DNA of 34,589 nucleotides from Acidobacteriota bacterium (GTDB lineage Bacteria > Acidobacteriota > Terriglobia > Bryobacterales > Bryobacteraceae): contig JACQZR010000021.1 in assembly GCA_016213775.1 (NCBI GenBank), positions 1 through 34,589 on the forward strand. The letters are read 5' to 3'. The translations under genes were made by a program, and so were the position numbers. Numbering within the stretch: position 1 is the stretch's first letter; the number at the start of each line of letters is the position of its first letter. The notes under the pieces are model-generated. The model made no database searches. It worked only from the letters and a program-made list of their open reading frames with translations, and was not told the origin of the DNA. This document shows positions 4,815 to 32,936 of the stretch, piece by piece.

Positions 4815-7100
4815 TTACTTGAGCCCCGCGTTTTCCGCCAGCCACGTGAACACCCGCTCCTGTGTCCTTCTCTTAAACTGGTTGAAATCCATGGGAGTTT
4901 CGAGACTCAGATTCCCCGCCACTGCCCAAGCCTTCCTCGCCTCCGCAACCTCGGCCCGAACATCAGCAACCCGCGCATAGCGGTCCAATGTTGGGGCGAT
5001 AAGAAGGACCTTCCTCGGCGCAGCCAGCGCCAGTGCCGCATCAAAATCAAACGGCAGCCGACCCTCCTGACCCACAAAAAAACCCAACCGCGGCATCAGC
5101 CCATGCAAATGGGAATAGTGCCGCACGCCCTCCACCCCGCGGTCCGCCGTGTCCAGCCGCAACGGATCGAACCCGCACACTGCCGCCAATCCCGCTACGC
5201 GCCCATCCAATGCCGTCGTCATTAATCCCACCTTGCCGCCCAGCGAATACCCCATCAGGTAGATCCGGTCAGCGTCGATCATGTCCAGCGCAGCCAATGC
5301 CTCCACGGCCGCTCGCGTATCGGCTACCATCTTCCCCATCAGCGACCAATGTGGATACCGGTTATAGAATTCCTTGGAATCGCGTACACGTGTCCCGAAC
5401 CCGATCTGATCGAATGCAAACACGGCGAACCCTCGCTTCGTCAAGCTCGGAAACGAAGGCCGCTGATCCATGCGAATGTCGGACCCCGTCGACGTCCATG
5501 GCTCCGCAATCGACCAGCCGTATTGGTAGCTATAGGCATGCAGCCAGATCACCACCGGCAGTTTTCCTGTCGCCGCCTTGGCCGGCAGAAATAGATTTCC
5601 CGCCAGCCCGTCGCCGAACGGTAGAATCTTCAGTTCCATTCCTTCCTTGCGCACCCGCTCCATCGACGCACGGTCCGCCGCCGGGCGCCGGAACAACCCG
5701 GCCAGCGCCCCCTCGCTCACAAACGGCTGAGTGGGCAAATCGCGACGCGGCAGATTGGCCGCATACGCGGGCTCATCTCCCAACGCCCACTCCACTTGCT
5801 TCCGCAGCGAGCTCTTCTCCAGCCGCAGGCTGCGTACCGCATAGGAAGTGGCCTGAATGTTCTCTCCTGAAACCTGTTTCCACTTCTCAAAATCATATCC
5901 ATGGATGAATGTTTCGGTCTTCGACCGTGGCCGCCGGTCAAACATGGCATCGAAGAAATCAACGAAGTTCTCGATATCTCCGGATGTCGTATCGTGCTCG
6001 CCTTCGCGTAAGTGAAGCCACAGATTCTGCTCGCGATTGAGGAAACGGTAGACCCGCAACGTATCCCGGTAATTCTGTTCAAACCCAAACGGATTCCCGG
6101 CTGACTCCGCAAACCCTGAATACATCATCAACCCGCGTGGCGCAATCAAGGCCTGCAGCGTATTCTGATCCACAGGCAACTTATCCTCGCGTCCGGAAAA
6201 GAACCGCAGCCGCGGATGAAACCAGTGCGACTGCGCCCCGGCCAATAACTCGATGCTTTCGTTGGCAAATGGCTCGGTGGTGTACCGCCACGGATCGCAC
6301 TCCCCGCTATTTCCGCTCGATGGAATCACCGCGGCGATGCGTTCGTCAAAGGCCGCTGCCAGCAGCGCCTGCTTCCCATTGCGCGAATGCCCGGTTAAGC
6401 CGATCTTCTTTTTGTCCACCTCCGGCAGCGTCAGAAGATAATCCACAGCCCGCGACGCCGCCCATGCCCACCTCGCCAGCACCGAAAAATCGTGTTGCGG
6501 ATACACTTCCACCCACGCATCGGAATCGTCGCCATTGCCGTACCGCGGATCCGTTGCGTGATACACACAGGCAATGTAGCCCCGCCGCACCGCCGTGTAG
6601 ATCCACGGACGGTTGCGCGCATGATTAGTCAAAAATACCGGAAAGGGCCCCTTGCCCTCGGGAATCACCAACTCCACGCGCAGTGTCGCCTTGTGAGACG
6701 GCCCGAACTCCAACCGCACCTCGCGCACCGTCGCGCGGCCCTCTTTGCGCGTGGCAGTCACGACAGCCCGCAGATTATCCGGCGCCGGCGGAAACTTCCC
6801 ATACATCCAATGCTCAATCCCGGCGCGCAGGACCTTCTTCCGTTCCGTCCATTGCGCCCCCGTCTGAACGCCCTGAAGCGGATCCGGTAGCCCCGGAATC
6901 GAAGGCATTGCATCGAAGTCCGGAGGCAACTCCCCCGTTCGCCGGATCCAATCCTCCCACGTCCGGTCCACGGCATTGATCCGTCCATCCGGCGGCACCC
7001 GGCTCGGCCGCAGCACCTGCAGCAGTTGATCGAGCGTGGCCTCACGGTCGGCCTGCGCCGAAACCGGCATCGTCAGCAGAAACAATAGAAGGAGTTGCAT
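4815..7100 (-). CDS. Secreted protein with two alpha/beta-hydrolase domains (CE15-like plus AXE1/DLH-like)
   Basis: 761 residues from the ATG at 7100, chosen because it opens a clear signal peptide (hydrophobic run, then VSAQA). The open frame extends further upstream without protein-like sequence. Domain 1 (about 85-390) resembles CE15 glucuronoyl esterases: nucleophile Ser239 in GHSRNGKQAL and the likely catalytic His369 in REGEHD. CE15 enzymes cut lignin-glucuronoxylan esters. Domain 2 (about 485-755) is a second hydrolase with nucleophile Ser619 in GYSLGG and a possible acid Asp706. At the usual C-terminal histidine position I see PMDFNQF, so its triad is non-canonical or the domain is degenerate. 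The protein is probably periplasmic or secreted and active on plant cell wall esters. The substrates are inferred from family membership. Confidence 0.8.
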   Translation of the reverse strand: MQLLLLFLLTMPVSAQADREATLDQLLQVLRPSRVPPDGRINAVDRTWEDWIRRTGELPPDFDAMPSIPGLPDPLQGVQTGAQWTERKKVLRAGIEHWMYGKFPPAPDNLRAVVTATRKEGRATVREVRLEFGPSHKATLRVELVIPEGKGPFPVFLTNHARNRPWIYTAVRRGYIACVYHATDPRYGNGDDSDAWVEVYPQHDFSVLARWAWAASRAVDYLLTLPEVDKKKIGLTGHSRNGKQALLAAAFDERIAAVIPSSGNSGECDPWRYTTEPFANESIELLAGAQSHWFHPRLRFFSGREDKLPVDQNTLQALIAPRGLMMYSGFAESAGNPFGFEQNYRDTLRVYRFLNREQNLWLHLREGEHDTTSGDIENFVDFFDAMFDRRPRSKTETFIHGYDFEKWKQVSGENIQATSYAVRSLRLEKSSLRKQVEWALGDEPAYAANLPRRDLPTQPFVSEGALAGLFRRPAADRASMERVRKEGMELKILPFGDGLAGNLFLPAKAATGKLPVVIWLHAYSYQYGWSIAEPWTSTGSDIRMDQRPSFPSLTKRGFAVFAFDQIGFGTRVRDSKEFYNRYPHWSLMGKMVADTRAAVEALAALDMIDADRIYLMGYSLGGKVGLMTTALDGRVAGLAAVCGFDPLRLDTADRGVEGVRHYSHLHGLMPRLGFFVGQEGRLPFDFDAALALAAPRKVLLIAPTLDRYARVADVRAEVAEARKAWAVAGNLSLETPMDFNQFKRRTQERVFTWLAENAGLK

Positions 7101-8842: not shown

Positions 8843-9643
8843 ATGCGACTCTGCATCATCTTTCTGGGTATCGGCCTCGCCGCCCAACACGACGCCAGCA
8901 AAGAAGGCAAACCCAAGAACCCCGCCTTCGGAAACCCCGAAGCCATAGCCGCCGGCAAGAAACTCTACGCTAACTCCTGCGCCGCCTGCCACGGACCCAC
9001 CGGCCAGGGTGGACGTGGACCCAACCTCCGCCATCGCGGCGCATGGCATCCGCTGGAAGACGACGGCCTCTTCCGCATCATCGAAAAAGGCGTCCCCAGT
9101 TCCGACATGCCCGGCTCCAACCTCCCCGAATCCCAAATCTGGCAAACCGCCGCATTTGTTCGATCTCTCACCGCGCCAGCCATCGAAAGCACCACTATCC
9201 CCGGTGACCCGGCCGCCGGCGAATCCCTCTTCACCGGCAAAGCAGGCTGCGTCAATTGCCATCGCGTCTCCGGCCGCGGCGGAATGCTCGGCCCCGACCT
9301 CAGCAACATCGGCGCAATGAAGGCTCTCGAAGACATTCGCGAGTCCATCCTCGATCCCGACGCCGACGGCTTCCATCGCTACAAAGCCGTCACGGTCAGC
9401 ATGAAGAATGGAACCACCATCAAAGGCGTCGCCCGCAACCGCAACAACTACTCCATGCAGGTGCAGGACGCCAAAGGCGAACTCCATCTACTCAACATGC
9501 GCGACGTGAAAGAGGTCACCGTCTCCGAGCATTCCCCAATGCCGCGCAACTACGCCCAGCGCCTCTCCAAAGAAGAGCTCGATAACGTCATCGCCTACCT
9601 CGCCCGGCAAAGCGTCCGTCCCAGGGATGCCGCCAAAAAATAG
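8843..9643 (+). CDS. Dihaem c-type cytochrome, electron acceptor of the PQQ dehydrogenase
   Basis: 266 residues from the ATG at 8843, chosen because it opens a short signal peptide (MRLCIIFLGIGLAAQ). The frame is open further upstream but not signal-like. There are two haem c sites: CAACH (46-50) in the first domain and CVNCH (136-140) in the second. Met89 and Met233 are likely axial ligands. The segment after the second haem (about 160-225) has the GTTIKGVARN...LLNMRDVKEV pattern of the haem-binding domain common in Planctomycetes and Acidobacteria. The protein should be periplasmic. It ends 12 bases before the PQQ dehydrogenase start and almost certainly takes electrons from it toward the respiratory chain. 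Confidence 0.88.
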   Translation: MRLCIIFLGIGLAAQHDASKEGKPKNPAFGNPEAIAAGKKLYANSCAACHGPTGQGGRGPNLRHRGAWHPLEDDGLFRIIEKGVPSSDMPGSNLPESQIWQTAAFVRSLTAPAIESTTIPGDPAAGESLFTGKAGCVNCHRVSGRGGMLGPDLSNIGAMKALEDIRESILDPDADGFHRYKAVTVSMKNGTTIKGVARNRNNYSMQVQDAKGELHLLNMRDVKEVTVSEHSPMPRNYAQRLSKEELDNVIAYLARQSVRPRDAAKK

Positions 9644-25143: not shown

Positions 25144-27912
25144 TCACAGCTGGGGCACGCGATTAATCGGCTTTGATATCTTGATCCGCTTCGCAGATCG
25201 GAAACGGTCAACATCAATCTCTTTCGACAGGAGAAACTTCAAGAATGACTTCTCCTGGAATCGACACGTCTGGGCAATGCCAAGGAGCACAAGGTAGTCG
25301 ACAGCGCCTCGCTGGTAGAGCCGGCCCGAAATCTTCCTCTGCACCGCAAGATGCCTGATCGCCCGCTCGCCTGTGTTGTTGTTCCAGGGAATGCCATCCT
25401 CGTCAAGGAAACGGAACAACGATTCTCGGTACCTCACAAACCGTTTCTGGTAAGTCTTCGTCACGTCCAGGCCGTACTCTCTGCCCTCAATTACTGTTTC
25501 GTAGAACCGGTCCACTTGCTTCTTGAATCTGCGCAGGTGTCTAGCTTTCAGACCCCATCGGTCGATGGCCTCAATAATGGGTACGATGAGGTCTTTCACT
25601 CCTGAGACAAACCCCTGAAGTTCCTCGTCAAACGGAAACTTCCATAGATCTTCATTTAAGTCCCGGATTAAGTGAACCCAACACTTCTGCTGTCTGCAGT
25701 CCAGCGCGTCATATCCCGCGTAAAAATCCGATACGACAACTCCCTGATAACCGCGGAGAATCTCCCGCACGATCGCGGTCTCCCGTGTTTCCGTCAATCG
25801 GAAGACAACGTGCCGACCGTCACTGAATACCCACACATACTGATCGACGCCGTCGATGCTGAGCCGTGTCTCGTCGACGTGGACAAACGGACTTTCCAGC
25901 AGGCGCTTCACGAGAATCGATTCCGTACGGCGGTAGTACGCGGCGAAGGATTCAACGAAATTGACGATGCTCGCCACGGACGCCGTCTCGTGGAACAATT
26001 CCTCCATTGCTTGGGTGATCACCCGGTATGGAAGCCGAAGAACAATCCGCTGATAGACGGCCCAAGCCCGAAATCCGTGGCCAAACGTCTGTCCGCGAAG
26101 CCGTTTGATTATAGGCGGTTCATAGAACCGGTGACACCGTTGACAGTAGCGCTCTTCGCCGGCGTACTTAACCACTGTCTTCCTGCACCCGGTATTTGCG
26201 AAACTTAGATCAACGATGACGATTTCAGCATCTTTGCCCGGCTTCTTCTGAAGGCGCTCTCCCTTGTGCTTGGGGCAGGTTCTCTTCGAAGCGACTTGGA
26301 TTACCGTGCGGCGACCCGCTGGAACGGTCCTCTCGTAGGCTTGGTGGCCCTTTGGTGCTCCTGGCCCGTTCCGTTTTGCCGTATCGGTTTGGGGCCGAAA
26401 GCTGATCCGGCCTTTCGGATGATCAAAGCTAGCGTACAGAAGCACGTGGTCAAGGGCCGTATGCAGTTCACTACCGAGCCTGGTAGCGTTCTGCTTTGGG
26501 CGGTCCACATAGTCAATGTCTAGCTCTGAATCGGCGTCGGTTCGAAGTCTCGCCAGTTTCTCAGTCAGGATGCGCAACGCCTGGCAATCCTCGGCGTTGT
26601 ACGAGATGAGTTTCTGCTTATATGCTGCTTCGCCGGCCATCTCCCAGCGGTACCGCCAAACCAGGCTCTGTAATCCGGAAGCGTCCGGCGCCGTCCAGGA
26701 AGCGCCAAGAAATTTGCCCAGCACCTTTAGGCCGTTAGAACGGACGGGAAAATAGACCTTGCCGTATACCTGAGAATTGAGATTGACCAATCTCTTGCTG
26801 AGGCATTTGACGTCCGTACCGAAGCGCTTAGCGAGAGACTCAATCGCCCGAACCTCATAACTCCCATAGTGATAGATGGGCGCATCGGGATACTCTTCCG
26901 CCTTCTCGATAAACATGCGCCAGATCGATTCTTCCTCTTCCGTCGTCTCGGCCCAGAAGGCGTGTTGCGTCAGAGTTTCGCGGGCGCGGACGAGCAGTCC
27001 AATGAGATAAGAGACCTGCTGATCCGGGATACCCTCAATATCCAGAAAGAGCTCAATGTCACTCTTCTGGATCTCCGGAACCGTCTGAATGTAGATCTTA
27101 CCGGTCCTGATGGCGAGCGCCTGTATCTCAAGATCAAAGCGCGGCGGTTGGGCTGCACGCCGTCGCCGTCGTCTCCGTGGTTTGAACAGAAAGGAAAGCT
27201 GCTTGACGGTGAAGATCCCTTTGCTGTGGTACCTCCGAATAGCCTTTGAAGTCATGCGATCTAACAGACTAAGATCATCAGCATCTTCCGCCTGCCGGCT
27301 ACAGACGCTTTTGAACGGGCAGTACGGGCAATGCTTGTTGAGGACAACTGGCGGCGGCTGGGCTGGTGGGTCTCCATACCAACCCTTTATGCGCTCCAGG
27401 ATGGAACCGACTATCTTGTACATGGGCTGAAGGTTCACTCGGTGGCACTCGCCATCAAGCGTTATGAGACATCCCATGGCGGGAGGCTTGTTCTGAAGCT
27501 GTCCGAGCACATATCCGACCACGGACAAATTGAGCATCTGCTCTTTTTCCAAACGATAGGTCCCAACCACGATCGTGGGCTCGTAAGCGACAGGGTCTCC
27601 ACGCTGACCCACGATCCTCAGTGCGTCGCAATACGCCGTAACATTTGCGGCTTCGAGGTTGGCTTCCGTGAGAACCTCGATGCTGGAGGAAAACGCCCTG
27701 TCGTTGTATGAGCAGGTCGATGTGTTTGTCCGCTGGAGGTTGGCCAGGTATGATTCTCTGTTAGCGCTGGCACGCTCCTCAAGAATGTGCGCATAATCGT
27801 TCGGTATGCCGCGGTCTTCGGTGCAATGGAGAAGGAAGGCTTTGCGCGGACAGTGCGAATACGCTATCACGCCTTCGGCGCGAATGACCTTGGTGTGCAT
27901 GGTTCTTGACAT
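25144..27912 (-). CDS. Cas4/RecB-like nuclease - RNase H-like - IS66-type transposase fusion protein
   Basis: 922 residues from an ATG with AGGAGG 11 bases upstream. (1) Residues 1-235 are a TM0106-type RecB/Cas4-like nuclease: YSHCPRKAFL (Cys21) and CPYCPFKSVC (Cys195, 198, 204) would bind an Fe-S cluster. Asp96 and Glu111 fit the nuclease core, but the usual lysine is not obvious. (2) Residues 255-455 resemble a YprB RNase H-like exonuclease: IELFLDIEG (Asp291, Glu293) and ISYNAEDC (Asp442). (3) Residues 510-600 have cysteines of a zinc-ribbon type (546, 576, 590, 593). (4) Residues 600-905 are an IS66-like DDE transposase: HVDET (Asp680), VSDFYAGYD (Asp729), NNNTGERAIR (Glu849). No frameshift is seen. 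No terminal repeats were found by eye. Confidence 0.8.
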   Translation of the reverse strand: MSRTMHTKVIRAEGVIAYSHCPRKAFLLHCTEDRGIPNDYAHILEERASANRESYLANLQRTNTSTCSYNDRAFSSSIEVLTEANLEAANVTAYCDALRIVGQRGDPVAYEPTIVVGTYRLEKEQMLNLSVVGYVLGQLQNKPPAMGCLITLDGECHRVNLQPMYKIVGSILERIKGWYGDPPAQPPPVVLNKHCPYCPFKSVCSRQAEDADDLSLLDRMTSKAIRRYHSKGIFTVKQLSFLFKPRRRRRRRAAQPPRFDLEIQALAIRTGKIYIQTVPEIQKSDIELFLDIEGIPDQQVSYLIGLLVRARETLTQHAFWAETTEEEESIWRMFIEKAEEYPDAPIYHYGSYEVRAIESLAKRFGTDVKCLSKRLVNLNSQVYGKVYFPVRSNGLKVLGKFLGASWTAPDASGLQSLVWRYRWEMAGEAAYKQKLISYNAEDCQALRILTEKLARLRTDADSELDIDYVDRPKQNATRLGSELHTALDHVLLYASFDHPKGRISFRPQTDTAKRNGPGAPKGHQAYERTVPAGRRTVIQVASKRTCPKHKGERLQKKPGKDAEIVIVDLSFANTGCRKTVVKYAGEERYCQRCHRFYEPPIIKRLRGQTFGHGFRAWAVYQRIVLRLPYRVITQAMEELFHETASVASIVNFVESFAAYYRRTESILVKRLLESPFVHVDETRLSIDGVDQYVWVFSDGRHVVFRLTETRETAIVREILRGYQGVVVSDFYAGYDALDCRQQKCWVHLIRDLNEDLWKFPFDEELQGFVSGVKDLIVPIIEAIDRWGLKARHLRRFKKQVDRFYETVIEGREYGLDVTKTYQKRFVRYRESLFRFLDEDGIPWNNNTGERAIRHLAVQRKISGRLYQRGAVDYLVLLGIAQTCRFQEKSFLKFLLSKEIDVDRFRSAKRIKISKPINRVPQL

Positions 27913-28105: not shown

Positions 28106-29056
28106 TTACAAGCTGCACTCAGGCTCAATTCCGAGCTTGTCGTTAACGGCGCGGCTCAGCCTCTGCTTGCATCCGAGGTATCGTTCGGTCGTTTGAATCG
28201 AAACGTGTCCGAGCAGGAACTGAATTTGGTCGAGCTCTCCGCTGGCAAGATGGCATAACCGAGCGCAAGTCCGCCGTAGGTCATGCGGCGCGAGCTTCTC
28301 GATGCCCGCGCGGCTGGCCGCTTCCTTCACAACCTCCCACAGCACCTTCGGCGTCATACCCTCGCCCCACACCTTGCCAGCCTTGTTGATCGAACGGAAC
28401 ACCGTGCCTTCGGTGATTCCGGCAGCAGTGCTCCAGACGTCGACTGCGGCCTTGACCCATGTCGGGACCGGAACCGTCCGGATATGTCCCGCCTTGCCCT
28501 TCAGGTCCGCGATCACCCAATGCTCCTCGCGAACCTGGATGGAATCCATCGCCAAGGACAGAAGTTCGCCGCGCCGGAGGCCGCAACCGATTAGCATCGC
28601 CAGAATGGCGCGGTTTCGTTTTCCGCGTAGTGTGGCGATGTCCGACCGTTCCAGCAGGAGCTTGCCCTGGGCGGGGGTGAGCCAGTTGCCCACGCGGACG
28701 CCAAGACGCCGGACTCCTTTGACTCGCCTTATTCCCGCCCCCAGTTCCGGGCTCAACAATCCCGAGTCGCACGCCTCATAGGCCACGCGGCGTACCGCCG
28801 CCAGACGCAGATTGATGGTGTTCGGAGCGTATCCTTTCTGTTCCAAGTAAATCCGGTATCTCAGGACCACGGTGCGATTGAAGGCCAGGCGCGGCTCCGA
28901 GCAATACCACTCGACGAACTCGTTGATGGCATGGTCGTACGTTCGTTGCCCGCTCACGGATGTGAGGGTATTGCGGACAGCGGATTTGGCCTGTTCGAGA
29001 TCCGGCAGTGCCAGGACCCGCTTCGGCGATTTCTTCTTCTTTCGAGGCTTCGACAT
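28106..29056 (-). CDS. Tyrosine recombinase/integrase (XerD-like)
   Basis: 316 residues from the ATG at 29056, chosen because the protein then opens with the basic MSKPRKKKKSPKR and AAGGGGG lies upstream. An N-terminal SAM-like core-binding domain (about 20-110) is followed by the catalytic domain. All active-site residues are present: Arg161 (GLRRGE), a Lys near 186-188, His258 and Arg261 (HDLRRT), His284 (LLGH) and the nucleophile Tyr293 (ERYLG). It cuts and rejoins DNA at specific sites. It lies 193 bases upstream of the nuclease-transposase gene on the same strand and could be co-expressed with it. No att sites are evident. Confidence 0.9.
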   Translation of the reverse strand: MSKPRKKKKSPKRVLALPDLEQAKSAVRNTLTSVSGQRTYDHAINEFVEWYCSEPRLAFNRTVVLRYRIYLEQKGYAPNTINLRLAAVRRVAYEACDSGLLSPELGAGIRRVKGVRRLGVRVGNWLTPAQGKLLLERSDIATLRGKRNRAILAMLIGCGLRRGELLSLAMDSIQVREEHWVIADLKGKAGHIRTVPVPTWVKAAVDVWSTAAGITEGTVFRSINKAGKVWGEGMTPKVLWEVVKEAASRAGIEKLAPHDLRRTCARLCHLASGELDQIQFLLGHVSIQTTERYLGCKQRLSRAVNDKLGIEPECSL

Positions 29057-29108: not shown

Positions 29109-29312
29109 ATGGTTATCAAGATGGAACGTGTACCGTCACAGCCTGTCAAGGATCCGCCGAACCTCGTTCGGGCATGTCCGTTCGATCTCGACCGGCTGTT
29201 GAGCCACATCGATCCTGGACCTGCCGAAGAATCCGAAGCCTACGTACGCCTCATCTATGAGCAGCGCCGTTCTGACCTCTCCTCCAAACGCAACGGCAAG
29301 ACTGGTCGTTGA
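29109..29312 (+). CDS. Putative VapB-like antitoxin upstream of a PIN toxin
   Basis: 67 residues starting at ATG 29109. An ATG 12 bases later is an alternative. The protein is small, acidic in the middle, and ends in EAYVRLIYEQRRSDLSS, a pattern I associate with small proteins encoded just before PIN toxins. There is no clear DNA-binding fold. It overlaps the toxin gene by 56 bases in another frame, which would couple their translation. The antitoxin role is inferred mainly from this arrangement. Confidence 0.55.
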   Translation: MVIKMERVPSQPVKDPPNLVRACPFDLDRLLSHIDPGPAEESEAYVRLIYEQRRSDLSSKRNGKTGR

Positions 29313-29697
29313 TACAGATGTTGCCAGTTTCATTTTCAAATGGCACCCCGTGTTTGCCCCGCGGTTTGTGAGCATCATCCGTGGTGCCGAGTTGATTGTC
29401 TCGTTCATGACATTGGCGGAAATGCGCCAAGGTGCGCTGGACGCGAATTGGGGACAACGCAAGTGGGACTTGCTGGATGCATATCTCGCGGATTTCTCAG
29501 TCCTGAATTCGGACAATCTACTGTGTTCGACCTTGGCTCCGGTTCGAAACGAGAGCGTGAGGAAAGGGCACCAGATGAGCGCAGCCGATGCATGGATCGC
29601 CGCCACGGCTCTGGTCCTGTCCGCACCACTGGTTACAAATAACGCCAAAGACTACCGCCACTTGGGCAACCTCCAACTCGTTTCCCCTGCCCGCTAA
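29257..29697 (+). CDS. vapC: PIN-domain toxin (VapC-like)
   Basis: 146 residues. The PIN fold starts at LVVDTDVASFIF (Asp19). Other acidic residues of the metal site are Glu55 (LAEMRQGA) and Asp111 (SAADAWIAATAL), followed by LVTNNAKDY near the end, where the fourth acidic residue is replaced by Asn or supplied by Asp132. VapC toxins are Mg-dependent ribonucleases that cut tRNA or rRNA. The first 15 residues precede the fold, so a start closer to it is possible. It overlaps the small gene upstream, the likely antitoxin, and is divergent from the integrase gene. Confidence 0.85.
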   Translation: MSSAVLTSPPNATARLVVDTDVASFIFKWHPVFAPRFVSIIRGAELIVSFMTLAEMRQGALDANWGQRKWDLLDAYLADFSVLNSDNLLCSTLAPVRNESVRKGHQMSAADAWIAATALVLSAPLVTNNAKDYRHLGNLQLVSPAR

Positions 29698-30239: not shown

Positions 30240-32936
30240 ATGAGGATGACAGACCGTCTACGACTGCGACTCCGCTCGCTGGTTCGCCGGCAGCGCGTCG
30301 AGCGCGAGCTTGACCAGGAGATCCGGTACCACCTGGAGGAACTCACCCGCCAGAATATGAAGCGCGGCCTGAGCCCGGCGGAGGCCCGCTCCGACGCTCT
30401 GCGGCGCTTCGGCGGGGTCACGCAGATTCAAGAAGACTGTCGCGACAAGCGCCGCACGCGCTGGTTGGAAGATCTGGTTGGAGACGCTCGCTACGCGCTG
30501 CGAACCCTATGGAAAACACCGGCGTTCACCGCTGCAGTGCTGGCGTCGCTGGCTCTCGGCATTGGCGCCAATACGGCGGTGTTCACGCTGATTCACGCGG
30601 TGATCCTTCGTCCCCTGCCGGTACCACAGCCCGAGGAACTTGTAGAAGTGACCGCATCTCCGGTCTTCTCTTTTGCGATGTACCGCGATGTTTGCCAACG
30701 CCAGCGGGTCTTCACCGGCATCATGGCCAGCTCGCGGGAATTTCCAGTGCGTCTGAACATACCCCGCGGCACGGAATCATTCACCCTGGACAACATCCCA
30801 ACAACCTTCGCTACAGCCAACTATTTTTCCGTGCTGAAGGTTCAGCCGCAGATAGGCCGTTTCTTCAGCGAAGAGGAAGACCAGATCCCCGAGAGCGCAG
30901 AATCGCAGGGTTCCGTAGCGGTGCTGAGCGATGCCCTTTGGACTCGGCAGTTTGGCCGCGATCCAGGTGTGCTGGGCCGCGTCATCTACGTCAACCGTAG
31001 CGCCTGCCATGTCATTGGCGTGGCACCGCGCGGATTCACCGGCGATGTAGTCGGCATCGCAACCGATGTGTGGGTGCCTCTAACACCCTTTTCGCCGCGC
31101 CGGTACCTGGAGGGCTGCGGCGGCATGTTCACGCGGTCCCTCGCACGGCTGAAGCCGGGCGTTTCCCTGGAGCAGGCCCGAGCCGCGATCCGTCCTTTGT
31201 ACCAGCAACTGCTAGCCGCCGAGTGGGCTCAGTATCCACAATGGAAGCCGCGCAATCCGAGGCCGATTCAAGAGTATCCGATGCACGTGCGTGCCGCCGA
31301 GGCAGGCCTCGATTCCGGCGTGCGAAGCAAGTTCGCGAAGCCGTTGTGGATCGTTATGGCGATTGTGGCGGCAGTGCTGCTGATCGCCTGCGCCAACGTG
31401 GGAAACCTCTTGCTCGCGCGATCCACCTGGAGGCGGCGCGAGTTCGGCCTGCGGCTCGCACTGGGATGCGGCCGCGGACGGCTGATGCGGCAATTGCTGA
31501 CCGAAAGCCTGATGCTTGCCGCGATGGGCGCCGGCTTGGGCCTGGCGATTTCGTAGTGGGGAAGCCGTAGTCTAAGCCTGATGGCCGGCGTCCGGGAGAT
31601 CGATCTAGGCCCGGATGTCACCGTGTTGGTTTTGCTGGCTGTAGTCGTAATGTTAACCGGCATTGGGTTCGGCAGCGCTCCGGCATGGCGTGCCGGCCAC
31701 GTGGATCTGGCAGCCTCGCTGGGCGATCAGGCCCGCGGCAGTGCCGGCCGTCACGTACGGCAACGCTTGAGCCGCACGCTCGTCGTGACTCAAGTGGCCC
31801 TTTCGCTCGCCCTGCTGATCGGCGCAGGCCTTTTGATTCGAAGCATCTACAACCTTCGCCATCTGGATCCTGGATTCCGGCCGGAACACGTGCTGATCTT
31901 CGACATGGCGCACAATCCGCGGAACCGCGAGCCAGTGGCACTGGCGCGAGTAGCGCAGCAGGTGCACGACCGCGTACGCCAGATCCCCATGGTGCGCTCC
32001 GCCAGCGTCTCCGCCATCCTGTTGTTCAGCGGCGCCGACCAATACGCGCCTGTGCGGATCGAAGAGTACCCGGCGAGTCTGGAGAACGTGGAACTGGCGC
32101 GATTCAACTATGTGTCCGCCGGTTATCTGGAAACGGTTGGAATGACCATACTGGATGGGCGAAGCATTGGAGAGCAGGATACCGAGACCGCTCCGCTGGC
32201 AGCCGTGATCAATCAATCGATGGCGCGTAAGTACTTCCCGCAGGGAAGTCCGCTCGGCCGTATAATGGAAATCGCCGACCCCGGCCGCCGTGGCAAGCCG
32301 ATCCAGATTGTCGGTGTTGTGCGGGACGCCCGCTACAACAATCTTCGTGCCGGGACCAAACCCATGTTCTACATGTCAATCCAACAGTCGCCGCGGACGC
32401 TGCGGGGAATCGAGGTACGCACGACTGAATCTGTCACTGGGATTCCAGAGCAGGTTCGCCACGCGGTGCTTGATGTGACGCCGGACCTGATGATCCGACG
32501 CGTGGCGACCCTCGATGCACAGATCGATGAGACCATCCGCCCGGAGCGCATGCTGGCGAACCTGTGCGTTGCATTCGGCGTCATCGCGCTCCTGCTGGCC
32601 AGTGTTGGACTCTACGGCGTGCTTGCGTATAGTGTGGCGCAGCGTACTGGTGAAATCGGAATCCGCATGGCGCTGGGCGCAACTCGCAGCGCCGTTTTGC
32701 GGCTGGTTCTGGGCCAGAGCGCCGCCGTCGTAGTTTTGGGCTTGGTTATTGGAATTGCCCTGGCGCTGGCGACCACGCGCCTGCTGTCCACCTTTCTCTT
32801 CGGCATCACGCCATGGGACGCAGGCACAATGGCGGCGGCTACAGCCGTGCTGGTGCTGGTTGCCGGAGTTGCCGCATGGCTCCCTGCGCGGCGTGCCACC
32901 AAGGTTGATCCGATGGTTGCTCTCCGGCACGAGTAG
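30240..32936 (+). pseudogene. ADOP family (MacB/FtsX-like) permease interrupted by one in-frame stop
   Basis: Read through one TAG, the frame encodes 898 residues, the normal length of an acidobacterial duplicated orphan permease. The first half (30240-31553) has the MacB-type opening PAFTAAVLASLALGIGANTAVF and ends in the helix GAGLGLAIS. The TAG at 31554-31556 is followed in the same frame by WGSRSLSLMAG and the rest of the permease, including LTGIGFGSAPAWRAG, LVVTQVALSLALLIGAGLL and the closing GIRMALGAT...LPARRATKVDPMVALRHE. The family usually has Tyr or Phe before this Trp-Gly. Either the gene is a recent pseudogene, the TAG is a sequencing error, or it is read through. Restart at ATG 31581 would give only the second half. 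Confidence 0.85.

Follow-up and report, generated by a model that had tools for sequence, protein, structure and literature searches.

A TM0106 module and an IS66-type transposase joined in one gene of a soil acidobacterium

The fusion of a TM0106 module to an IS66-type transposase in a gene of a soil acidobacterium is real. Its architecture recurs in full-length relatives, each of its halves forms one clade, the protein is conserved, and the gene is patchily distributed and often broken. We are evenly divided on whether the protein serves as transposase to a minimal mobile element that derives from IS66, consists of a single gene and has an exonuclease built in.

Domains and active sites of the fusion protein

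The gene lies on the minus strand of the window, by which we mean the whole stretch of DNA that was analysed (34,589 nt). It is an uninterrupted frame of 922 residues, as an earlier note on this DNA had stated, and the ribosome site claimed there was found as AGGAGG, 11 nt upstream of the ATG. The fusion gene is the one match at E 1e-3 in its own genome (10.96 Mb, 314 contigs). Its parts are the following.

25144..27912, minus strand: complete fusion gene, a single ORF from ATG to TGA, 922 aa
27058..27879, minus strand: RecB/Cas4-like Fe-S module, about residues 12-285, with Cys21, 195, 198 and 204 kept and the catalytic D-x-K lost
27301..27330, minus strand: cysteine cluster CPYCPFKSVC, residues 195-204
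26533..27057, minus strand: RNase H-like domain, predicted DEDD exonuclease, about residues 286-460, with D291, E293, E353 and D442
26134..26277, minus strand: zinc-ribbon-like ligands C546, H549, C590 and C593, between exonuclease and transposase
25231..26088, minus strand: IS66-type DDE transposase domain, about residues 609-894, with D680, D729 and E849

The presence of both modules in one chain, also claimed earlier, was confirmed by NCBI curated profiles, each above its cut-off. The TM0106 profile TIGR03491 covers residues 12-450 (E 2.2e-61; 208.3 bits against a cut-off of 97.45) and the IS66 profile NF033517 transpos_IS66 covers residues 522-894 (E 8.2e-56; 189.7 bits against 180). With Pfam, RNase_H_2 (PF13482) was found on residues 288-453 of the window protein, and DDE_Tnp_IS66 (PF03050) on residues 609-865 with 115.2 bits against a cut-off of 23.1.

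The motifs described in the earlier note as intact proved to be so only in part: the DDE residues, the exonuclease acids, the zinc ligands and the Fe-S cysteines are present, but the RecB/Cas4 catalytic D-x-K is absent from all 12 fusions compared, that is, the window protein and 11 full-length fused relatives. The triad D680, D729 and E849 had been named correctly and is identical in 12 of 12, and the zinc-ribbon-like ligands C546, H/C549, C590 and C593 are likewise present in every fusion. So are D291, E293, Y438 and D442 of the exonuclease domain, and E353, which we take to be the second acidic motif of a DEDD exonuclease, is Glu in 11 fusions and Asp in one. The assignment of D291, E293, E353 and D442 to the DEDD motifs is likewise our presumption. 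A conserved VDL of the canonical relatives is changed to VNL in 11 of the 12 fusions; by our understanding of DEDD exonucleases, its Asp presumably lies outside the four metal ligands. Judged from these residues, the DDE and exonuclease sites are predicted to be catalytic.

In the RecB/Cas4-like module, Cys21, 195, 198 and 204 are retained in all 12 fusions. The canonical TM0106 relatives carry the motif YEVxDTK, with the D in 10 of 10 and the K in 9 of 10 compared; in 3 of the 12 fusions D96 has additionally been lost. Because the D-x-K is gone from every fusion, this domain is probably a dead nuclease, and the earlier idea of an active RecB/Cas4 nuclease was not borne out.

A structure model of the full-length protein was too poor for use (pLDDT 36). 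For residues 1-470, a model from nine sequences, which drew on three loci from a scan of viral contigs for canonical TM0106 proteins, reached a pLDDT of 80.9. Foldseek gave three PDB matches to it at E 0.001 or better; the best were two Cas4 chains of the type I-C Cas4-Cas1-Cas2 complex 8d3l (E 6.8e-6, TM 0.60 by target, rmsd 6.6), and Dna2 (5eax) was matched at E 5.0e-4. The Cas4-like fold proposed earlier thus found its structural counterpart, and a Cas4 profile spans residues 13-207 of the fusion protein. The top viral structure matches were giant-virus proteins, one of them named YprB RNase H-like. In PADLOC all nine proteins scanned gave weak Cas4 profile matches, which reflect the Cas4 fold only, and a sequence search of the PDB with the fusion protein gave no match at E 1.

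Relatives, trees and broken copies

Full-length fusions were found in Acidobacteriota, in the phylum of a Syntrophaceae MAG and on two cyanobacterial plasmids, 12 in all from three bacterial phyla, so that the fusion recurs with its halves joined and not as two separate genes. Identity to the window protein is 88% for L032, 85% for L033, 81% for L034, 49% for both L035 (Syntrophaceae) and L042 (a plasmid of Calothrix sp. PCC 7716), 34% for L005, and 31% for both L025 and L043 (Acaryochloris marina plasmid pREC4); L048, L049 and L039 are further full-length members. The nearest relative, L031 (96%), is frameshifted at about residue 62. The expectation that related fusions already sit in databases was correct, although they are labelled in part: the two plasmid copies are entered as 'transposase IS66, putative' (BDA76463.1) and as 'TM0106 family RecB-like putative nuclease' (WP_261892461.1), each label covering one half, and the family thus sits in databases under two half-names.

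The distribution is sparse. In the taxonomic family of the window, 7 of 237 genomes, spread over 7 of the 76 genera, have a match at E 1e-60, and two of these genomes (G009 and G049) hold fragments only; in its genus the fusion is found in one of 12 genomes, its own, at the same threshold. A sample of the phylum gave matches in 4 of 396 genomes at E 1e-30, the window's own genome included and two others (G315 and G363) with only broken copies. For the phylum to which the Syntrophaceae MAG belongs, the count at 1e-60 is 3 of 395 genomes, and in G826 the match is a broken N-terminal half. Among 72,556 plasmid records, two have a locus that spans 80% or more of the query; there were also 271 partial matches, mostly plain IS66 or TM0106 proteins among the matches listed. 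The Syntrophaceae contig (58.6 kb, island-like) carries two divergent fusions, both opposite to most neighbouring genes. No two near-identical copies were seen within one genome among the genomes searched. Three scans of viral contigs with fusion queries confirmed no fusion, and phage records gave no full-length member with the queries used, three records having partial transposase matches.

Separate trees were built for each half, with the 12 fusions set against 10 TM0106 proteins for the N-terminal half and against 11 plain IS66 proteins for the C-terminal half. The fusions form one clade apart from the others in both trees (support 100/99 and 100/100, respectively). The same two groups of six appear in each, supported by 98/96 and 84/83 in the N-terminal tree and by 98/99 and 100/99 in the C-terminal tree; the trees disagree on the branching inside the second group, which they do not resolve, and a warning about long branches was issued by the program. 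Among the window gene, L032, L033 and L034, whole-gene dN/dS is 0.18-0.25 in all six pairs, and by module it ranges from 0.12 to 0.42, the weakest value being that of the RecB-like part in L033 against L034. All six tested pairs are under purifying selection.

Many further copies are damaged. L040/L068 is a fusion copy with an internal deletion; L036, L037, L038, L041 and L079 are fragments, some of them ended by contig ends. Three loci considered as stand-alone N-terminal versions were rejected as broken copies: L050 is an N-terminal half with stops, L076 has a frameshift and is interrupted beside an rve-like frame (transposase-like, as read by eye), and L077 is an N-terminal piece running into a methyltransferase-like frame. 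Among the close relatives examined, intact stand-alone halves were not seen. The L077 frame (G049:C26) resembles a deletion product yet is open over 468 aa, the first 254 or so residues of a fusion relative being followed by the methyltransferase-like sequence.

Boundaries, repeats and neighbouring genes

In one cyanobacterial pair the shared stretch nearly coincides with the ORF. The copy on Aulosira laxa NIES-50 plasmid5 has an internal deletion: what remains is the first 25 nt, made up of 3 nt ahead of the ATG and 22 nt of coding sequence, followed directly by the last 236 nt, and over these last 236 nt it is 94% identical to the Calothrix copy. Similarity between the two runs from 3 nt before the ATG to 2 nt past the stop, which suggests that the moved unit is close to a bare ORF. 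On the left side, the Calothrix flank matches a fusion-free plasmid region of Calothrix NIES-4101 as far as 5 nt short of the ATG, and the gene upstream is 83% identical there; the right side of this empty site was not found. The Aulosira remnant, which keeps both ends of the fusion, is labelled 'putative transposase IS66' (L112, 3980-4237). The gene upstream of the Calothrix fusion, at 5431-5970 of L042, is short and conserved on cyanobacterial plasmids; 31 plasmid records match it at least in part, Calothrix 7716 included, and on the three plasmids compared it is followed by a tyrosine recombinase directly in L115, on the other strand in L114 and past two small genes in L113.

At the acidobacterial loci flank similarity drops to background near the ORF. 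Against L033 and L034, the 60 nt leading up to the ATG of the window gene show no similarity and the first 30 nt beyond the stop show some; against L032 neither side shows any. However, L033 and L034 have about 50 nt upstream and 30 nt downstream in common, and the window and L031 share the upstream tyrosine recombinase and about 96 nt downstream, so that the moved unit is not always the bare ORF. Some bins farther from the gene exceed 100 shuffles (at -90 to -60 for window/L033 and L032/L033, at +60 to +90 for L032/L033), which we read as chance among 60 bins; the upstream bins of L032 are offset by 12 nt in this comparison, and carry no offset in the other flank comparison.

No convincing terminal inverted repeats or 8-bp target duplications were found in the 15 regions tested; the ends of L064 match at 10 of 18 positions and beat all 100 shuffles, which is weak across 15 tests. 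Direct repeats were surveyed in 18 records, two of which have flanks too short; the other 16 represent 15 distinct places. Long repeats were found in L033 and L034, an exact 17-nt repeat in L067 and none in the other 13. In L033 a repeat of 161-166 nt (87%) of a host gene end surrounds the fusion, and in L034 a 134-nt repeat (98.5%) of host DNA does so, which may be an assembly effect since it reaches the contig end. In L033 the repeated sequence is the end of an SGNH-hydrolase gene, present on both sides of the fusion (5745-5910 and 8933-9098) as if more than 160 nt of target had been copied. The SGNH gene yielded no informative empty site in the two-genome genus of L033; the right flank of the window led, in its own genus, only to a related recombinase/PIN locus and to no empty site, and the Acaryochloris flank search gave no useful boundary.

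The neighbours of the fusion gene in the window are as follows.

28106..29056, minus strand: tyrosine recombinase, directly upstream and on the same strand, 94% identical in amino acids between the window and L031
24422-25036, plus strand: remnant of an rve (IS3-type) integrase core, adjoining the fusion gene
29257-29697, plus strand: PIN-domain toxin-like gene, adjoining the tyrosine recombinase
30240-32936, plus strand: FtsX/MacB-like permease in two frames, 30240-31556 and 31581-32936, with the family name given by eye

No partner gene is constant: the commonest neighbour families are present at 4 of the 19 places compared, a number that two families reach. One is the tyrosine recombinase (window, L031, L042 and L112); the other is a large FtsX/MacB-like permease (window, L031, L065 and L070), which is the next gene downstream in the last three. 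These recurring permeases may only mirror the abundance of such genes in acidobacteria, as they are presumably numerous in these genomes, and the permease region of the window matches further copies in its own genome. Both window frames match one larger protein of L070 and are perhaps one broken gene. No cas1/cas2 or CRISPR was noticed among the neighbours read. Downstream of the fusion or its remnant, the permease lies at 6163-9195 in L031, 302-2465 in L065 and 2110-4752 in L070. Short pieces like the rve remnant recur elsewhere in the window genome, which also holds two decayed relatives of the tyrosine recombinase (58-65%; G000:C257:47894-48708 and C135:477-1245) without a fusion. Another genome of the genus (L089) has a 73% similar PIN/recombinase stretch, also without the fusion.

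Possible roles and comparison with known systems

The idea that the two parts were joined in frame by accident, or by an assembly error, in a single genome has nothing in its favour beyond the unusual architecture; it was rejected, since eleven full-length fused relatives, two of them on complete plasmids, leave it hardly any probability. The gene could instead be a passenger, the cargo of tyrosine recombinases or plasmids, with its own DDE activity serving another purpose or none. Such a recombinase lies directly upstream in the window, in L031 and at the Aulosira remnant, and 0.6-3.6 kb away in L043, L042 and L032, and in the window and L031 recombinase and fusion form one common 4-kb block at 94%. 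However, reading by eye the genes around L033, L034, L064, L065 and L066 revealed no recombinase; among the recombinases compared, the only close pairs are window/L031 (94%) and Aulosira/Calothrix 7716 (47%), the other detected pairs being at 20-32%; and the Calothrix fusion stands behind an unrelated plasmid gene, 3.6 kb from the recombinase. We regard the role of a passenger as rather unlikely.

We think it improbable that the protein is a nuclease that has been domesticated or works in defence, once a transposase and now retained by plasmids and islands as a DNA-attacking effector. Toxin-like neighbours would fit such a role (PIN near the window gene, VapC beside L043, a ParE-like gene under the Pfam cut-off near L067 and HEPN near L050), as would the purifying selection on all modules and the PADLOC matches. 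The latter, however, are explained by the fold, a constant partner gene is missing, broken copies are many, and the viral and phage collections held no full-length member with the queries used. Cargo and defence both also fit the patchy distribution, but the ORF-tight boundary and the frequent decay are less easily explained by either.

Under the reading as a minimal mobile element derived from IS66, a single ancient event would have fused a TM0106 module to an IS66-type transposase, and the resulting gene would have spread across phyla in one piece ever since. In this scheme the dead Cas4-like Fe-S domain might grip the DNA end or a single strand, the DEDD 3'-5' exonuclease might trim the gripped DNA, and the zinc ribbon and DDE domain might recognise and transfer the ends. 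We infer that the element mobilises itself. The long direct repeats of L033 and L034 count against a simple cut-and-paste IS66 element, which would not make them. A bolder version, which we put forward with considerable doubt, is that the element consists of the ORF and a few bases, with the start and stop codons as its ends and no inverted repeats or short target duplications; the exonuclease and the dead Cas4 end-holder would replace accessory proteins, and insertion would follow a route undescribed for DDE transposases, perhaps with long target duplications as in L033 and L034. A transposase with an exonuclease and a Cas4-type DNA holder of its own would tie transposon end processing to the Cas4/Dna2 world within one protein. 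The fusion offers a compact setting in which the contribution of such modules to integration can be tested, and a nearly bare mobile gene would be an unusual kind of mobile element.

No published description of a TM0106-IS66 fusion was found in the literature searched. In the portions of PMC5704561 at hand, Cas4-like domains are fused to UvrD helicases and to Cas1 and an inactivated Cas4 is given for TTV1, and a fusion to IS66 is not mentioned there. The available portions of PMC3985635 describe COG2251 as a DUF83 domain (PD-(D/E)XK-nuclease-like) with an RNase H-like domain, often accompanied by AAA domains, and assign IS66 to a different clade. The fusion has the same order of RecB/Cas4 and RNase_H_2 as TM0106/COG2251 (TIGR03491), which all nine members scanned match, but a transposase follows and the D-x-K is lost throughout. 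The earlier note has canonical TM0106-family proteins usually alone or joined to a helicase, and the AAA domains described for COG2251 in PMC3985635 agree with a helicase; most of the canonical relatives compared have about 870-1120 aa, some being cut. Cas4 (8d3l) and Dna2 (5eax), the top structural matches, are resembled in fold and in the four kept cysteines; unlike in them, the catalytic site is degenerate, and the neighbours read offer no link to Cas1 or CRISPR.

IS66 elements have terminal inverted repeats and make an 8-bp target duplication, and accessory tnpA and tnpB are usual in the family, though absent in single-gene subgroups; neither was noticed among the neighbours of the fusions. 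Like IS66 transposases, the fusion has a DDE domain above the curated cut-off, the DDE triad and zinc-ribbon-like ligands; it differs in the 460-residue N-terminal TM0106 module, in the lack of convincing inverted repeats or 8-bp duplications in the 15 regions, and in branching apart from the 11 plain IS66 proteins. In TnsA-TnsB of Tn7, a restriction-type nuclease fold is teamed with a DDE transposase. The fusion recalls this arrangement, but its nuclease fold looks dead, and the second activity would be the predicted DEDD exonuclease.
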